The translations under genes were made by a program, and so were the position numbers. This document shows, piece after piece, positions 43,757 to 53,832 of a DNA stretch of 64,000 nt. The DNA lies in assembly GCA_031291675.1 (NCBI GenBank), contig JARLIO010000034.1, forward strand, positions 372,001-436,000, in the 5' to 3' direction. The notes below the pieces were generated by a model, which did no database searches, was not told the DNA's origin, and saw only the letters and a list, made by a program, of their open reading frames with translations. Position 1 is the first letter of the stretch. Every line of letters begins with the position of its first letter. Origin of the DNA: Azospirillaceae bacterium. Its GTDB lineage: Bacteria; Pseudomonadota; Alphaproteobacteria; Azospirillales; Azospirillaceae.

Positions 43757-44725
43757 ATGGCTGACTATGATTTCTCCAAAGTCGACGCCTACATTTTGGA
43801 GCCGGAATCCGGTGCCCGTCGACTTATCCGCAATAGTCTAGAAGTACTGTCCGTCACGCGGATCGCCAGTTTCTCGGGCCTCAACGATCTGCGCGAGGGG
43901 ATCGCCAAGGAAACGCCGGACCTGTTAATCTGCGACATTGAGTCTGCCGACAGCGATCTGCTGCGCCTGATCCACAGTACACGGCATGGCCACCTTGGCA
44001 CCAATCCCTATCTGTGTGTGATTGTTACAACCTGGGCCGCAACGAAGCCCCTGGTCGATCGGTTTACCAACTGTGGTGCCGACGCCCTGTTGATCAAGCC
44101 GTTTTCGATTCGGCAACTGGCCGATCGGGTGATCGCCCTCACCGACGCGCCGCGCCACTTCATCGTGACCAACGATTACATCGGCCCCGATCGCCGCCGC
44201 GCGCCCCGCGAAGGCGTATCGTCGGCGCCGCTGGTTGAGGTCCCCCATTCGTTACGTCTCAAAGCCACCAGGACCTTTTCCAAGACCGATCTTCCGGCCC
44301 TGATTGACAACGCCGACCGCGAGATCAATGAGCGCAAGCTGGTTCGTCACGCGTTTCAGATCGCGTTCCTGCTCGAATTTGCCCTGCCCGATCTGCTCGC
44401 CGGACGACAGGATGGCTTGGCCTGGGACCATCTGCTGCGCGCCATCACGGTCCTGGACGAAACGCAGCGCCGCTTCACACGCGTCAACCGGACGTTGCCG
44501 CAAGCGGAAGCCACCTGCGGTGCCCTCAAGGGTTTGGCGCAACGGGTCAAAGACGGCAAGGCGTCGGCCACCGACCTCGCACAGTTGCGCCCCCGGTCAA
44601 TCGAACTGATGCGAATGATCAGCCCGCATCGCCGGGCTGAAGAGCTGGCCCGTGAGGTCAGCGACGCCGTGGCTGGCTACCGCCGCCGACTCGAAGAACT
44701 TGCCAAGGCCAAACAGGCCGGTTGA
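43757..44725 (+). CDS. CheY-like receiver protein with helical C-terminal domain
   Basis: A 322-residue protein. Residues about 7-130 form a receiver domain with the phosphoacceptor Asp in LLICDIES and the Lys in ALLIKPFSIRQL. No DNA-binding domain follows. The motif YIGPDRRRAPRE near residue 140 is the short segment seen after receiver domains in many alphaproteobacterial signalling proteins. The rest is helical. It lies between glgX and malQ in the same direction, so a link to glycogen control is possible but unproven. The cognate kinase is unknown. Confidence 0.75.
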   Translation: MADYDFSKVDAYILEPESGARRLIRNSLEVLSVTRIASFSGLNDLREGIAKETPDLLICDIESADSDLLRLIHSTRHGHLGTNPYLCVIVTTWAATKPLVDRFTNCGADALLIKPFSIRQLADRVIALTDAPRHFIVTNDYIGPDRRRAPREGVSSAPLVEVPHSLRLKATRTFSKTDLPALIDNADREINERKLVRHAFQIAFLLEFALPDLLAGRQDGLAWDHLLRAITVLDETQRRFTRVNRTLPQAEATCGALKGLAQRVKDGKASATDLAQLRPRSIELMRMISPHRRAEELAREVSDAVAGYRRRLEELAKAKQAG

Positions 44726-47304: not shown

Positions 47305-48207
47305 TCAGCCGCGGGTCAGGGCATGAATCAGGATCGCCGCCGTCGCCGCAACATTGAGCGACTGCACCCGCCCCGATCCGGTGATGGTGACGACGGCTTC
47401 GCACGCCTCCAGGGTCGGAGGCGGCAGGCCGATTTCCTCGTTCCCCAGGACCAGAACCACCGGCCGGGTCGATCGCTGCAGATCGGCGACATCAAGCGGC
47501 CGGCCACGTTCCAGCGCGGTTCCAACCACCAGATGGCTGGCTTGAAGCGTCCGCAGCACCGCGGCAATCGGGTCGGCCCGATAGAGCGTCACATGCTCCA
47601 GCCCCCCTTCGGCGACCCGATGAGCCGCCTCCGACGGTCCGGCCTGTCCCGGATGACCGGAAATCACCAGTCGATCCAAACCGAAAAACGCCGCGGTGCG
47701 CACAATCGCCCCCAGATTGTGCGGGTTGCCGACACCGTCCAGCATCAGGATCGGCCCGGACCACCGCCGCGCCACGGCCGGATCGAACGCCAGCACCGGG
47801 CGCGGCCGGGCCACGGCGACGATGCCGCCATGGAGCATCGTCCCGGCGACCCGCGCCAACTCGTCGCCATCAACCTGGCGGAACGGTTTGCGCGCCCGGG
47901 CTAAAACCCGGCACAGCTCGAGCGCCGCCGCCGCGGTCCTCGTGTCGAAAAACAGGCGTTCGATACGATCGGGATCCCGCGAAAACAGCGCGCTTACCGC
48001 CGGCAGGCCGGCAATGCGAATCAGCCGCTCCTGTGGCTCGGCGATCACCGGTGGCGATGACAACAACGCTCCCGGCGTCGCGGTGCGATGCCGAATCGGT
48101 CCGTGGCCCCGCAAGCCCCGTGGGCCCGCGCCCCGACCTTCGGGTTCGCCACCCCGCATTCCGCCGCCTTTGCGCTTTTGCATCACCGCCCACCCCGTCC
48201 GCATCAT
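47305..48207 (-). CDS. TrmH/SpoU-type RNA 2'-O-methyltransferase
   Basis: A 300-residue protein. Residues 1-50 are Gly/Arg-rich and basic. An N-terminal substrate-binding part (RIAGLPAVSALFSRDPDRIERLFF) precedes the SPOUT knot: LMLDGVGNPHNLGAIVRTAAFFGLD is motif 1, VLVLGNEEIGLP motif 2 and GSGRVQSLNVAATAAILIH motif 3. It methylates ribose in tRNA or rRNA; the exact site cannot be told. ATGs at 48207, 48204 and 48183 are possible starts. It is the last gene of an operon with the small membrane protein and the pseudokinase. Confidence 0.88.
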   Translation of the reverse strand: MMRTGWAVMQKRKGGGMRGGEPEGRGAGPRGLRGHGPIRHRTATPGALLSSPPVIAEPQERLIRIAGLPAVSALFSRDPDRIERLFFDTRTAAAALELCRVLARARKPFRQVDGDELARVAGTMLHGGIVAVARPRPVLAFDPAVARRWSGPILMLDGVGNPHNLGAIVRTAAFFGLDRLVISGHPGQAGPSEAAHRVAEGGLEHVTLYRADPIAAVLRTLQASHLVVGTALERGRPLDVADLQRSTRPVVLVLGNEEIGLPPPTLEACEAVVTITGSGRVQSLNVAATAAILIHALTRG

Positions 48208-48271
48208 CTCCCCGCACTTGGCGGCACCCGTGCGCGGCGATCAAGCGGAATCGGGAACACAGCACGCCGGT

Positions 48272-48784
48272 TCACGGGAGTTCCTCCTCCTCGACCTCCT
48301 CGCCGGTAACCTCGGCGCCCCATTCCTCGATCAAGGCCTGCTGTTTGCTTTCCAGGTTGCGGACCTTGGTTTCGTGAGACAAGGAAACCATTCCCGCGAC
48401 CAGCGGAGGGATGACGAAATAGAGCGTCCAACCGACCGCGGCCGCCCCATACATCACCAGCCACGTCATCGGCTGGGCCAGGATCGTCAAACTCTCATGG
48501 AACGTGTTCGTGCCGCGCCACAACTGCAGCAGGTACGGCAGAATGCCGCAAAGATTGACGGCGCCGACCGTGATCGGCGCCGTCTTTTCAGGATCGCGAT
48601 CCGAAACCCAGGCCGAAAAGGTCGGCAGCATGCCGATCACCAGCAACAGGCACGTCGCCATGAAGAACAGCATCGCCGGCATCACGACGAACAAAAGGAA
48701 AAATATTGTATTGTTGCCCTTGCGTGCTTTCCGACGTCGCGGTGACCCCGCTCGCACTTTCTTGGCCCCCACCTTGCCCGTCAT
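48272..48784 (-). CDS. Small membrane protein paired with the pseudokinase
   Basis: A 170-residue protein. A basic N-terminal tail (GKVGAKKVRAGSPRRRKARK) precedes about three to four membrane helices (FFLLFVVMPAMLFFMATCLLLVI, GAVNLCGILPYLLQLW and AQPMTWLVMYGAAAVGWTLYFVIP-like segments). The C-terminal tail of about 35 residues is acidic and probably a coiled coil (SLSHETKVRNLESKQQALIEE). The gene starts 3 bp after the pseudokinase stop, so the two are co-translated. The family is not recognised. Coupling suggests the two proteins form a membrane complex. Confidence 0.75.
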   Translation of the reverse strand: MTGKVGAKKVRAGSPRRRKARKGNNTIFFLLFVVMPAMLFFMATCLLLVIGMLPTFSAWVSDRDPEKTAPITVGAVNLCGILPYLLQLWRGTNTFHESLTILAQPMTWLVMYGAAAVGWTLYFVIPPLVAGMVSLSHETKVRNLESKQQALIEEWGAEVTGEEVEEEELP

Positions 48785-48787
48785 TCC

Positions 48788-50824
48788 TCAATGTCGCATA
48801 AAAGTGACGCCAAGGATGGCGAGCGAGAGCAACGAGGCCACGACACTCGATACCAGAGCGGCAACCTGCCGTCCGATGCCATGCTCGATTGTCACCTTGT
48901 CGGTAATTTCAGCCCGCAACTTGCCGATATCACGTGTATGAATGTAGTAATCCTTGCGGGCGTTCAGAAACCCGACCTCATCCCGGCGCTGGGCATCCGA
49001 ATTGTCGACCATGCGCAGCAGGGGCGACAGATCGCCTTCCCTTGCATATTTCTCGGCTTCCTGCTTCATGGTCCCCCGCATCTTGCGATTGTGGAACTTA
49101 TGGAAGGTCGGCTCCATGATGCCGACCATCCAGGCCGCGAGATGCGGCAGGCGGGCGGCGCCATTGCGGCGCTGGACATCGCTGAGAATCGTCAATTGCG
49201 CCGTGATCCGGCGCCCGGCTTCGATACCGACGCTGAGTTGAGCCAGCATCTTTTCATCGACCCGGTGGGTTCGCGCCGCCAGGAATGCGGCGATATGTCG
49301 ATCCAGCGGATCGTGATCATGTTTGGTGTTTTTGGCCAAGGTGTCCAGCGCGTCCAGGACATCGGCGACGGACATCGGGCAATATTGCGTCAGCACCGGG
49401 CTGATGCAGGGCATCATGGTGTTCATTTCGTAGAGCACCCGCTCGATGCCAAAGCCGATGGTGCCCCGCTCCAGAAAACTCTTCTGCACATCGAAAGCCT
49501 GGATCATCGGCACGAACTCGGCGCGGAATTCGGGCTGCATATTGACCCAGAACATCGGGATCTGGTAGCCGATGATCTCGGCTAGGGTCTGCCCGCTTTC
49601 GCCCTTCATCAGGGCTTCCATCATCGCCGCCCCGATCCCGTCGGGCATCACCGACCGGCCCTTGTAGCGGATCGGTCCCGTCGGATCGAGGGCGACGCAA
49701 ACCCGCGACACCAGCTTGTCATCGTAGGTTGGCGCCCGCCCCCCCGCGGCGGCGACTTCGATGGCACTGGCGACCGCCTCGGCGCGCGGTTCCTCATTGA
49801 GACTCCGGCGCAGCCAGCGATCCAGCTCCCCCGACTCGATCAGATGCGCCGCCGCCGTGGTGTTTCGTGACATGGCCCGTGCCACACTGCGGCAATGCCA
49901 GTATTCCTGGCCGTCGAATTCCAGCGGCCGACTGCCCCGACGCGCGACATGGGGTTGTTTGGGACTGAGCCGGCGGCCACTGAGCCACAACTCCAGGTCA
50001 TTGAGCGTCCAACGCTGCTTGGGATCGTCACTCAACAGGCCGCGCAGCGGCTCCATGATCCCCAGCGACAGCCGCAGGCCGCTCGCCAGGGCCGGATAGC
50101 TGCCCCGTTCGATCTTGAGCTGTAACACGCCGTCATCATCGAGATGCTTCAAGGGATTTCGCCCCAGCATCAGGATCACGACACTGACGCCCAGGGCATA
50201 GAGATCGTCGCCGATTGTTCCCGGCCCGCGTCCCGACGGCTGGGCCAGGCCGCGTTCGACCGTTTCAATCAGCACCGGCTGTCCGACGCCGGGCAGCGAC
50301 GAGACCCCCTCGCCCAGAACAACCCCGGATCCGCCAATATCGCGCATGAACATATTGCTTGGCCTGACCGAGCTATGGCCAATGCCGCGACTGGCAAATT
50401 CCTTCAAGGCCGCCGCCAACGGCTGAATAATCAGACGCGTCGCGTTATCCTCGTTCATCGGTTCCAAGGTGTCGCCGAGGTTGTTCATCAACCGCCGGCC
50501 GGGTGGCTTGTCGAAAATCAGGACGTAGCGCCGCCGACCCTCCGGGGTCCAGTCGACAACCCCATGATCGAGCAGGCGCATCGTCGACGGATGCTCGATA
50601 TGCCGGACCGAGTTCAAGACCTCGATCCACGGGGACACGCCTGACGTGCAGACGATCGCCATCAGATCGCTGCGGCGCTCTTTCAAAGCCCGCGCGACAT
50701 AAGCCTGATTGCCGTTGGCATTGAATTCGGCCAGGGGCGCGTTGGGCAGGATCTCGAATCGATTACTGAGCGCGACCGGATCGACGGCGTTGGCTCGGGC
50801 GGACGGAGAATCAGCGGGCGCCAT
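48788..50824 (-). CDS. Tail-anchored pseudokinase
   Basis: A 678-residue protein with a Ser/Thr protein-kinase-like fold at residues about 20-290. The catalytic features are missing. The beta-3 strand reads LMAIVCTSG without the VAIK Lys, the catalytic loop reads GIGHSSVRPSNMFM (residues 148-160) with no Asp, and VLGEG (169-173) stands where DFG is expected. The region after residue 300 is a long helical domain of about 350 residues with no recognised family. The last 28 residues (VSSVVASLLSLAILGVTF) form a single C-terminal membrane anchor, leaving the bulk in the cytoplasm. It leads an operon with the small membrane protein and the TrmH gene. A scaffold or allosteric role is inferred. Confidence 0.78.
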   Translation of the reverse strand: MAPADSPSARANAVDPVALSNRFEILPNAPLAEFNANGNQAYVARALKERRSDLMAIVCTSGVSPWIEVLNSVRHIEHPSTMRLLDHGVVDWTPEGRRRYVLIFDKPPGRRLMNNLGDTLEPMNEDNATRLIIQPLAAALKEFASRGIGHSSVRPSNMFMRDIGGSGVVLGEGVSSLPGVGQPVLIETVERGLAQPSGRGPGTIGDDLYALGVSVVILMLGRNPLKHLDDDGVLQLKIERGSYPALASGLRLSLGIMEPLRGLLSDDPKQRWTLNDLELWLSGRRLSPKQPHVARRGSRPLEFDGQEYWHCRSVARAMSRNTTAAAHLIESGELDRWLRRSLNEEPRAEAVASAIEVAAAGGRAPTYDDKLVSRVCVALDPTGPIRYKGRSVMPDGIGAAMMEALMKGESGQTLAEIIGYQIPMFWVNMQPEFRAEFVPMIQAFDVQKSFLERGTIGFGIERVLYEMNTMMPCISPVLTQYCPMSVADVLDALDTLAKNTKHDHDPLDRHIAAFLAARTHRVDEKMLAQLSVGIEAGRRITAQLTILSDVQRRNGAARLPHLAAWMVGIMEPTFHKFHNRKMRGTMKQEAEKYAREGDLSPLLRMVDNSDAQRRDEVGFLNARKDYYIHTRDIGKLRAEITDKVTIEHGIGRQVAALVSSVVASLLSLAILGVTFMRH

Positions 50825-51186: not shown

Positions 51187-52479
51187 TCAGTCGGCAAAGG
51201 GATCGTGCACCAGAATCGTATCGTCACGCTCCGGGCTGGTCGACAGCAAAGTCACCGGGGCGCCGATCAGCTCCTCGATCCGACGGACATATTTGATCGC
51301 CGTCGCCGGCAGATCGACCCAGCTTCGGGCGCCACGGATGCTTTCCGACCAGCCTTCAAACGACTCATAGATCGGCTCGACCTCGGCCTGGCCGGTCGGT
51401 GACGCCGGAAACCGGTCGATAACCTGACCGCGGTAGCGATAACCGACACACACCTGGATCTCGTCGAAACCATCCAGAACATCGAGCTTGGTCAAGGCGA
51501 TGCCATGGATGCCTCCGACCTGGACCGCCTGGCGGACCAGCACGGCGTCGAACCAGCCGCAGCGGCGCTTGCGCCCGGTGACGACGCCGAATTCCTTGCC
51601 CCGGGCGCCGATCAATTCACCGATCTCGTTGAGCTGTTCGGTCGGAAACGGCCCGGACCCGACACGGGTGGTATAGGCCTTGGAGATACCGATGACATAG
51701 CCCACCGCGGAGGGCCCGACACCGGCACCGGTGGCCGCGGCTCCGGCCACGGTGTTGGACGAGGTCACGAAGGGATAGGTGCCATGATCGACATCGAGCA
51801 TCGTGCCCTGGGCGCCCTCGAACAGGATGCGCTTGCCCGCGCGCCGCAAACCGTCGAGGCGCTGCCAGACCGGCGCGGCAAAGGGCAGGACCTTCGGCGC
51901 GATCTCGCGCAACTCCTGCAGCACCGTGGCCCGATCGATCTCGGCCGACCCCAAACCGCGCAGCAGCGCATTGTGGTGGAACAGCAATTCGTCGACCTTG
52001 CTCTCCAACGCGGGTTCATCGTCGAGATCACACAGACGGATCGCGCGCCGGGCGACCTTGTCCTCGTAGGCCGGACCGATACCGCGGCCGGTCGTGCCCA
52101 GCTTGCGCAGGCCGCGAGCTTCCTCGCGTGCACGGTCGACAGCGCCATGAAGCGGCAGAATCAGCGCCGCATTGTCCGCAACGAGCAGATTCTCCGGGGT
52201 CACGGTGACACCCTTGGCCGCGATCGCCGTGATCTCGCGCAACAGCGCCCAGGGATCGACGACCACGCCATTGCCGATAACCGACAGCTTGCCCGGCCGC
52301 ACCACGCCCGAGGGCAACAGGCTGAGCTTGTATTCGATCCCGTTGATCACCAGGGTGTGACCCGCATTGTGGCCCCCCTGGAATCGCACCACGACATCGG
52401 CCCGGCTGGACAGCCAATCGACGATCTTGCCTTTTCCTTCGTCGCCCCACTGGGCGCCGACCACCGCTACGTTGGCCAT
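51187..52479 (-). CDS. purA: Adenylosuccinate synthetase
   Basis: A 430-residue GTPase-type ligase of the normal length. The N-terminal [18 protein letters not shown] is the GTP-binding signature, and [20 protein letters not shown] follows. [22 protein letters not shown] and [22 protein letters not shown] are further family motifs. It joins IMP and aspartate, the first committed step to AMP. It lies downstream of hisZ in the same direction with an 81-bp gap. Confidence 0.98.
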
Positions 52480-52560: not shown

Positions 52561-53718
52561 CTATTGTTCGGCGCTGACAGGAACCCCATCGAGCAGGACG
52601 TAACCACACCCGAGTCGCCGCGCCTCCGCGGCCGGATCGTCGACGGCGCCCAGGGCGGCAATCGTGATCCAGCCCTCGCTGCGCAACCGCACACCCGCCG
52701 CCGTGGCAACACCCAAGGGCAGGAAAACCCGTCTCGCCAGGGCCGGGCCGGGCGCAGCCTCCAGCACCGTGTCGAGGTAAAGGGTAAAGCCGGTCGACGG
52801 ATCCCCGTCCGGATCATCATAACCCGCGCGATAGCGACCGCCACGCCCCAGTTCACCGCTGACGCCATGAGCAAACAGGGTAAAGCTGACGCCGGTCTGA
52901 TATTCGAAGCTGCGATGCTCAACCGGATCAATCGTCAACTGCAAGGTCGGATCGACCGCGGCAACGCGCCGCACCACCTCGGCCAATCGGCTGCGTTCGG
53001 CATTGGCCGCCTCACCCGGCAGATCGAGCGCGGCCAGCAGCGGCAGAGCCCGTGCCGCCGGCCCCGACGCCGCCATCAACTTGATCACCAGCGCGGCGGC
53101 GGCACCGCCCACCGCGGCGACAGCATCGGCATCGCGCCGATCGGCCGCCGCACGCAGGGCCGCGGTGCGCGCCGCGTCCAATCCCGAAACCAGACACAGG
53201 GTCGTCACCAGCGTCGGCACCGTCAAATCGATCGACAGACGGCGCACGCCCAATCCATTCAGCGCCTCGGCCGCCAACAAAACCATTTCGGTATCGGCCG
53301 CAGGCTCTGCGCTGCCGATCAGCTCGACCCCCGCCTGGGCGAACTGGCGTTCCGGCCGCAACTGGCTCCCCTTGACCCGGAGCACCTGTCCGGCATAGCT
53401 GAGGCGGAGCGGACGCGCCACATTGGTCAGCCTGCTGGTCGCGATCCGCGCCACCTGCAAGGTGATGTCGCCGCGCACCCCCATCATGCGCTGTGAAACC
53501 GGGTCCATCAGCCGAAAGGTCTGTTGTGCCGTTGCCACCCCGGGACCGGCCAGCAGACTGTCTTCGAATTCAATCAGCGGCGGTTTGACACGGTCATAGC
53601 CGTGCGCGGCGAATGTCGCCATCAGCCGCTCGATCATCGCCGCCTCGTGGGCAGCATCCGGCGGCAGCAGGTCATGAAGCCCGGTGGGCAGTAGGGCGAT
53701 CGATTTCGGCGCGTTCAT
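52561..53718 (-). CDS. hisZ: ATP phosphoribosyltransferase regulatory subunit
   Basis: A 385-residue protein related to histidyl-tRNA synthetase. The ATG at 53718 is chosen because GAGGAAG precedes it. LLPTGLHDLLPPDAAHEA is motif 1, and GVRGDITLQVARIATSRL follows with altered synthetase motif 2. ELGRGGRYRAGYD near the end is typical. It has no tRNA-charging anticodon domain. It forms a complex with the short-form HisG and confers histidine feedback. hisG is not in the window. purA follows in the same direction. Confidence 0.93.
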   Translation of the reverse strand: MNAPKSIALLPTGLHDLLPPDAAHEAAMIERLMATFAAHGYDRVKPPLIEFEDSLLAGPGVATAQQTFRLMDPVSQRMMGVRGDITLQVARIATSRLTNVARPLRLSYAGQVLRVKGSQLRPERQFAQAGVELIGSAEPAADTEMVLLAAEALNGLGVRRLSIDLTVPTLVTTLCLVSGLDAARTAALRAAADRRDADAVAAVGGAAAALVIKLMAASGPAARALPLLAALDLPGEAANAERSRLAEVVRRVAAVDPTLQLTIDPVEHRSFEYQTGVSFTLFAHGVSGELGRGGRYRAGYDDPDGDPSTGFTLYLDTVLEAAPGPALARRVFLPLGVATAAGVRLRSEGWITIAALGAVDDPAAEARRLGCGYVLLDGVPVSAEQ

Positions 53719-53832
53719 TCCGCAGGCTTCCTCGCGGCCCGACCCGGGCGGGTCAGCCAAAGCTTGGTAACTAGCCCAATCCCCGCCAAGGGGCAAGTCC
53801 CGAACCAATCCGGCCAGGGCAACGAATCGTGG

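Follow-up and report, generated by a model that had tools for sequence, protein, structure and literature searches.

Few bacterial pseudokinases have a known job, according to PMC12599244. For the gene pair reported here, the nearest functional precedent would, by analogy, be EssB/YukC, the transmembrane pseudokinase of type VIIb secretion, which combines a degenerate cytoplasmic kinase domain with a membrane anchor and works with other membrane proteins (PMC12599244 and PMC9600267). The pair lies in a 64,000-nucleotide stretch of DNA from an Azospirillaceae bacterium (GenBank assembly GCA_031291675.1, contig JARLIO010000034.1, positions 372,001 to 436,000), hereafter the window, whose own numbering is used throughout. 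It consists of two minus-strand genes, one for a tail-anchored kinase-like protein of 678 amino acids (PK; 48788..50824), defined from the open reading frame list and its translation, and one for a small membrane protein of 170 amino acids (SMP; 48272..48784), recognized from the same list and from its co-occurrence with PK. Together they point to an undescribed two-protein membrane complex.

PK shares the features just listed with EssB/YukC and differs from it in several respects: a helical domain of ~320 residues is inserted between the kinase fold and the anchor, the partner is a small protein with several membrane segments, the family is alphaproteobacterial, and an extracellular domain is missing. 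Because of this last difference, we do not count PK as a member of EssB/YukC. The GLW pseudokinases, as described in PMC12599244, resemble PK in being mostly proteobacterial, in carrying a bulky hydrophobic residue at the site of the beta3 Lys and in having a C-terminal transmembrane segment. However, the HRD site of PK reads mostly HGA or HRx rather than GLW, and its beta3 consensus is F-A-I/L-I/V rather than LLLL/W; since neither motif matches, PK is not a member of that family. The WNK kinases, which provide the top fold match by Z score, also lack the beta3 Lys, but they are active enzymes in which the Lys has moved to strand beta2 (PMC12599244). A beta2 Lys of the WNK type was not identified in PK. 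No description of the PK-SMP family was found in the open-access literature, and the bacterial kinase atlas cited in PMC12599244 may list PK under another name.

The distribution of the pair was followed with the C-terminal helical domain of PK (CTD) and with SMP, at search E cut-offs of 1e-10 and 1e-5, respectively. Among 385 Alphaproteobacteria, 131 genomes gave a CTD match and 132 an SMP match, with both in 130 and neither in 252. In G401, the lone genome with CTD only, the gene right after PK encodes a divergent SMP (E 1.3e-7), so that all 131 CTD genomes possess SMP; the two genomes with SMP only are assemblies that are 84% and 75% complete. When 398 genomes sampled from the phylum were searched, the strong matches (15 for SMP and 16 for CTD) all fell within Alphaproteobacteria, and three marginal CTD matches were judged spurious. 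Of 59 genomes searched for PK, 43 have it (the window's own among them), as do all 35 of the same family. The window's genome, alphaproteobacterial and 5.87 Mb in size, has one PK match and one CTD match.

The two genes are also neighbors. SMP lies at most 1 kb downstream of 132 of the 148 CTD matches, and among the other 16, G401 and one copy in G546 have a divergent SMP at that position. Gene order was compared at 122 other loci (the best 80 of 197 confirmed named loci plus 42 from whole genomes, the window excluded), a set that includes duplicates, probably the same strains represented twice, and in which adjacency was scored from domain positions. SMP adjoins PK at 116 of these; in the window, the SMP start codon lies 3 nucleotides past the PK stop. 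The six remaining loci comprise two contig ends, one gap of 777 nucleotides and three genomes in which SMP is located elsewhere (L128, L130 and L143, close relatives that perhaps reflect one event). When redundancy was reduced to less than 90% identity, which left 66 non-window loci (the partial gene at L107 was excluded), three exceptions to adjacency were found: a contig end at L037, SMP elsewhere at L128 and the 777-nucleotide spacing at L135.

The association persists when the surroundings change. Pairing holds at 56 of the 57 loci that have no purA upstream of PK, the remaining one being a contig end, and on these grounds we conclude that the pair moves as a unit. In G411 and G627 both genes are retained on separate contigs. 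Copy number tells a similar story: more than one CTD match was found in 14 genomes, of which 7 carry equal numbers of CTD and SMP and two (G706 and G679) look like a single gene split at contig ends; G750 and G551 each carry a PK-SMP-PK-SMP tandem. Both genes are kept in small genomes, for example in G475 (1.4 Mb, 100% complete). An earlier reading of the window, made from its sequence alone, had tied a membrane pseudokinase to a small membrane protein, and this part of it is strongly supported: the two genes occur together, lie side by side, and are relocated and duplicated jointly.

The architecture of PK was predicted with AlphaFold2 (pLDDT 88.8, pTM 0.82), and the model is confident for both the kinase-like part and the helical domain. 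The kinase-like domain spans about residues 14-290 (49955..50785, minus strand) and is delimited by the model and its structural match to kinases. Residues ~14-284 superpose on kinases, with WNK3 at the top (VIA-align Z 23.9, 2.8 A over 254 residues, 14% identity) and PknA (Z 22.9) and PknB (Z 22.0) close behind; the 50 kinase entries listed as matches range from Z 21.3 to 23.9. At the sequence level, the Pfam kinase match of the window's PK is below threshold (18 bits against a cut-off of 31.7), and 38 of 43 aligned PK members match Pkinase at E values up to 1, the best being 3.9e-11. Two residues, D207 and R271, are kept in all 123 aligned members, the window counted among them; we take them to be the Asp of subdomain IX and the Arg of subdomain XI. 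PK is thus protein-kinase-like in its bilobal fold and in its structural Asp and Arg.

Among the catalytic motifs, the VAIK Lys of strand beta3 is missing in 122 of the 123 members (Val58 in the window), and the sole case with a Lys, L042, looks alignment-shifted. The HRD Asp is missing in 116 members, including the window (Ser152), and kept in 7; Ala, Ser, Gly or Asn mostly takes its place, and the motif reads H-S-S in the window and mostly H-G-A or H-R-x in the family. Asn157 of the catalytic loop is retained in 122 of the 123. At the DFG-Asp site, occupied in the window by Glu172 (codon 50309..50311, minus strand), 121 of 123 members have an acidic residue (68 Asp, 53 Glu), within a motif that is mostly (D/E)-C-V and not DFG. 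This placement comes from a profile of 43 PK members compared with MK2 (E 2.1e-12), an alignment inspected by eye, in which E172 falls on the DFG Asp; because a single-sequence search with the window's PK puts Gly171 there instead, the assignment of the site rests on the profile. The sequence-only reading had all three catalytic residues lost: the VAIK Lys and the HRD Asp are indeed gone from nearly the whole family, but the profile does not extend the loss to the DFG Asp.

The same pattern recurs beyond the aligned set. Nineteen more distant PK members have neither the beta3 Lys nor the HRD Asp, and 16 of them have D or E at site 172; likewise, the beta3 Lys and the HRD Asp are both missing from all 13 further copies, made up of paralogues and G401, and D/E172 is present in 10. 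Close to where helix C begins, Arg66 is another conserved position: 122 of the 123 aligned members (window counted), all 19 distant ones and 11 of the 13 further copies have it. The window itself departs from this with a Trp codon (TGG; 50627..50629, minus strand), as do one copy in G551 with Lys and the divergent G401, with neither Arg nor Lys. The Trp66 of the window may be a real change or a sequencing error. The window also has Gly173 where 115 of 123 members have Cys.

Beyond the kinase-like domain, PK continues into the CTD (about residues 291-612, ~320 residues; 48989..49954, minus strand), which the AlphaFold2 model delimits and for which no convincing structural match was found. Modeled alone from 67 sequences, residues 288-612 gave a pLDDT of 92.4 and a pTM of 0.86. 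Against the PDB, the best Foldseek match had an E value of 0.18 and the best VIA-align match a Z of 4.5, with 0 of 987 chains at Z of at least 5; against the viral models of BFVD, the best Foldseek E value was 0.41, and sequence-profile searches with the CTD returned nothing convincing. Since no solved structure matched convincingly, the fold has probably not been solved yet and is likely new, as far as searches of the PDB (Foldseek and VIA-align) and BFVD (Foldseek) can tell. Several candidates were discarded along the way: matches to TerB, armadillo and release-factor domains were at chance level or had a tiny overlap, an internal duplication, hinted at by two beta-hairpin/helix blocks, found no support (probability <1% in a crude profile comparison), and marginal CTD matches outside PK (G322, G247 and G389) were short, one of them with a stop, and lay in frames judged by eye to be unrelated or non-coding.

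PK ends in a membrane anchor at about residues 651-676 (48797..48874, minus strand), called from hydropathy and corresponding to a model helix at 643-677; the protein stops ~2 residues later. A C-terminal transmembrane-like segment was detected by hydropathy in the last 45 residues of all 122 PK members tested, L107 being left out of this count. The order of kinase fold, helical domain and C-terminal anchor is therefore the one that had been proposed from the sequence of the window.

SMP, which follows directly on PK in the window, is basic at its N-terminus and contains some three hydrophobic segments (residues ~26-61, 70-91 and 106-133). L068, whose SMP reads as frameshifted, was kept out of alignment A2. 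In 41 aligned SMPs, the invariant residues are M1, P54, N77, G80, A115, W155 and G156. W155 and G156 belong to an EWG motif at residues 154-156 (48317..48325, minus strand), and the WG motif is kept even in two divergent SMP copies. It is this WG, and not the acidic tail noted in the window, that forms the conserved C-terminal trait of the family. Natural PK-SMP fusions were also looked for, and the three hand-checked cases with long SMP frames (G472, G546 and G677) were out of frame.

We consider it probable that PK and SMP form a two-protein inner-membrane complex of Alphaproteobacteria, in which a non-catalytic scaffold, which may bind nucleotide, works with a dedicated partner. PK would be held in the membrane by its C-terminal helix, in an orientation that would expose a non-catalytic kinase domain and the unmatched helical domain to the cytoplasm. 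SMP would be its dedicated membrane partner, probably binding PK through its membrane segments and its WG tail. The degenerate pocket would probably have a binding or switching function in place of phosphotransferase activity, and as a whole the complex could provide a client with a membrane scaffold. The observations behind this proposal are the sequence anatomy, the motif losses, and the co-occurrence, co-location, joint relocation and co-duplication of the two genes; that the two proteins bind each other, that PK is inactive, that the complex is a scaffold, how PK is oriented and how SMP is arranged in the membrane are inferences.

Several points weigh against the proposal. The Fisher p value for co-occurrence, 3e-100, ignores shared ancestry. 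In 7 genomes, the only SMP and the only PK lie on different contigs; in two of the seven, G531 and G347, PK is at a contig end, where adjacency cannot be judged. PK paralogues without an adjoining SMP occur in G718, G553, G644 and G519, and as one of the copies in G546, and extra SMP copies without an adjoining PK number three each in G048 and G564 and one in G540. Finally, D/E172 and Asn157 are mostly kept, and their retention may leave room for nucleotide or metal binding, even for some catalysis.

The scaffold proposal can be taken a step further, in a form that we regard as tentative. Here, the pair would be a lineage-restricted inner-membrane machine of Alphaproteobacteria, kept even in streamlined genomes, in which the pocket (Asn157, D/E172 and Arg66) would bind nucleotide and thereby switch a new-fold helical domain that acts on or through SMP.

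One alternative is that PK is an atypical active enzyme. It would bind ATP through Asn157 and D/E172, with a migrated basic residue such as Arg66 in place of the VAIK Lys, and the group transferred would be phosphate, AMP or some other one. WNK, SelO and SidJ are atypical kinase-fold enzymes with transfer activity. The near-universal Asn157 and D/E172, the seven members that keep the HRD Asp and the almost invariant Arg66 outside the window speak for such an enzyme, but the HRD Asp site is otherwise mostly Ala, Ser, Gly or Asn, the DFG Phe and Gly sites are mostly Cys and Val, and D/E172 is lost in 3 of the 19 distant members and 3 of the 13 further copies. WNK kinases do head the structural list, with the others within about 2 Z units; the likeness, however, is one of fold only, at the low identity given above, and the window's PK is without Arg66. 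On balance, an active enzyme seems unlikely.

That PK helps to assemble a secretion or envelope machine, in the manner of EssB/YukC in type VIIb secretion, is less probable again. The precedent of a membrane-anchored pseudokinase with a membrane partner (PMC12599244 and PMC9600267) is offset by the absence of recognized secretion genes among the frequent neighbor families, most of which have no annotation, and by the end of PK just past its anchor, which leaves no counterpart of the YukC extracellular domain.

We found a service to the flagellar or motility machinery more doubtful still. Among 79 hand-picked genomes, 49 of the 56 with PK and 13 of the 23 without it had a FlhA match (p 0.005, phylogeny ignored), and the tandem in G551 (L202, 844-10498) adjoins flhA, a motA-like gene and a sigma-54 regulator. 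This adjacency to flagellar genes, however, was seen in one genome only, FlhA was not found in 7 of the 56 PK-positive genomes, the window's own included, and FliF was not found in the window's genome either. Trp66 of the window was considered as a mark of flagella loss and dropped, as all five PKs that could be read from the other FlhA-negative genomes retain Arg66, which likewise speaks against a flagellar link; the PK of a sixth such genome, G540, is too short for residue 66 to be read. The four other family genomes in the FlhA sample all have FlhA, unlike the window's genome.

The third gene of the locus, a SpoU/TrmH-family RNA methyltransferase of 300 residues (47305..48207, minus strand), is a clear member of the SpoU/TrmH methyltransferases of the RlmB/YfiF type. 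Its PF00588 (SpoU_methylase; 2.4e-31) and substrate-binding PF08032 (4.3e-7) domains are both over the cut-off, whereas its matches to NCBIfam models all fall short of their cut-offs, so that it is assigned to no exact RNA target. The three minus-strand frames lie where the sequence-only reading had placed them, including the SMP start just after PK; the methyltransferase gene is on the same strand, 64 nucleotides separate the SMP stop from its ATG, and no terminator-like site was called between them. That reading took the three genes for an operon joining a pseudokinase scaffold to RNA methylation. In the conserved gene order, however, PK-SMP is retained and the methyltransferase is not: a TrmH gene was near PK at 0 of the 122 other loci (flanks of up to about 6-8 kb; three loci with <700 nt downstream), and a close TrmH relative (E <1e-70) occurs elsewhere in 27 of 34 other family genomes, in a sample without a second genome of the window's genus. 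In the 8 family genomes with the TrmH relative and PK on one contig, the two are separated by at least about 205 kb. The methyltransferase looks like a bystander and not part of the PK-SMP unit, and the three-gene operon is very improbable. Antiphage defense was also set aside, as the PADLOC and NCBIfam matches (PD-T4-6, MAD6 and LanL) were weak and mainly covered the kinase domain, with the NCBIfam ones far below cut-off.

In the direction of transcription, the minus-strand genes run hisZ, purA, PK, SMP and the SpoU/TrmH methyltransferase; beyond them lies a malQ-like gene in convergent orientation. The purA gene (adenylosuccinate synthetase; 51187..52479) lies on the same strand upstream of PK, as at 65 of the 122 other loci, and is itself preceded by a hisZ-like frame (52561..53808, minus strand) with a match to the Histidyl-tRNA synthetase family, a relative of which is present at 59 of the 122. 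The common neighbors of PK-SMP that can be named, hisZ, purA and a convergent rpoH, are housekeeping genes and name no pathway for the pair. The last of these is a sigma-factor-like gene on the opposite strand, 3' of SMP in many loci (a cluster of 58 loci), which is annotated as rpoH at L186. Around the lone SMPs of G048 and G564, which belong to one genus (L190, L191, L193 and L194), no common partner was recognized by eye, no dedicated neighbor search having been made. The second PK copy in G553 and G644 and the separated SMP in G627 adjoin a gene of the same type (L197, L198 and L207), whose start we presume to be that of a YchF GTPase; this could be coincidence. Elsewhere in the window, positions 43757-44725 encode a response-regulator receiver domain with a C-terminal part of ~190 residues, the latter with no family match over the cut-off.

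In two annotated plasmid records, the PK gene is labeled 'serine/threonine protein kinase' and SMP 'hypothetical protein'. A gene annotated as a kinase belongs to a widespread, probably non-catalytic family of membrane proteins with an uncharacterized partner. The persistence of the pair in small genomes, down to 1.4 Mb in a 100% complete assembly, suggests a core rather than an accessory function.

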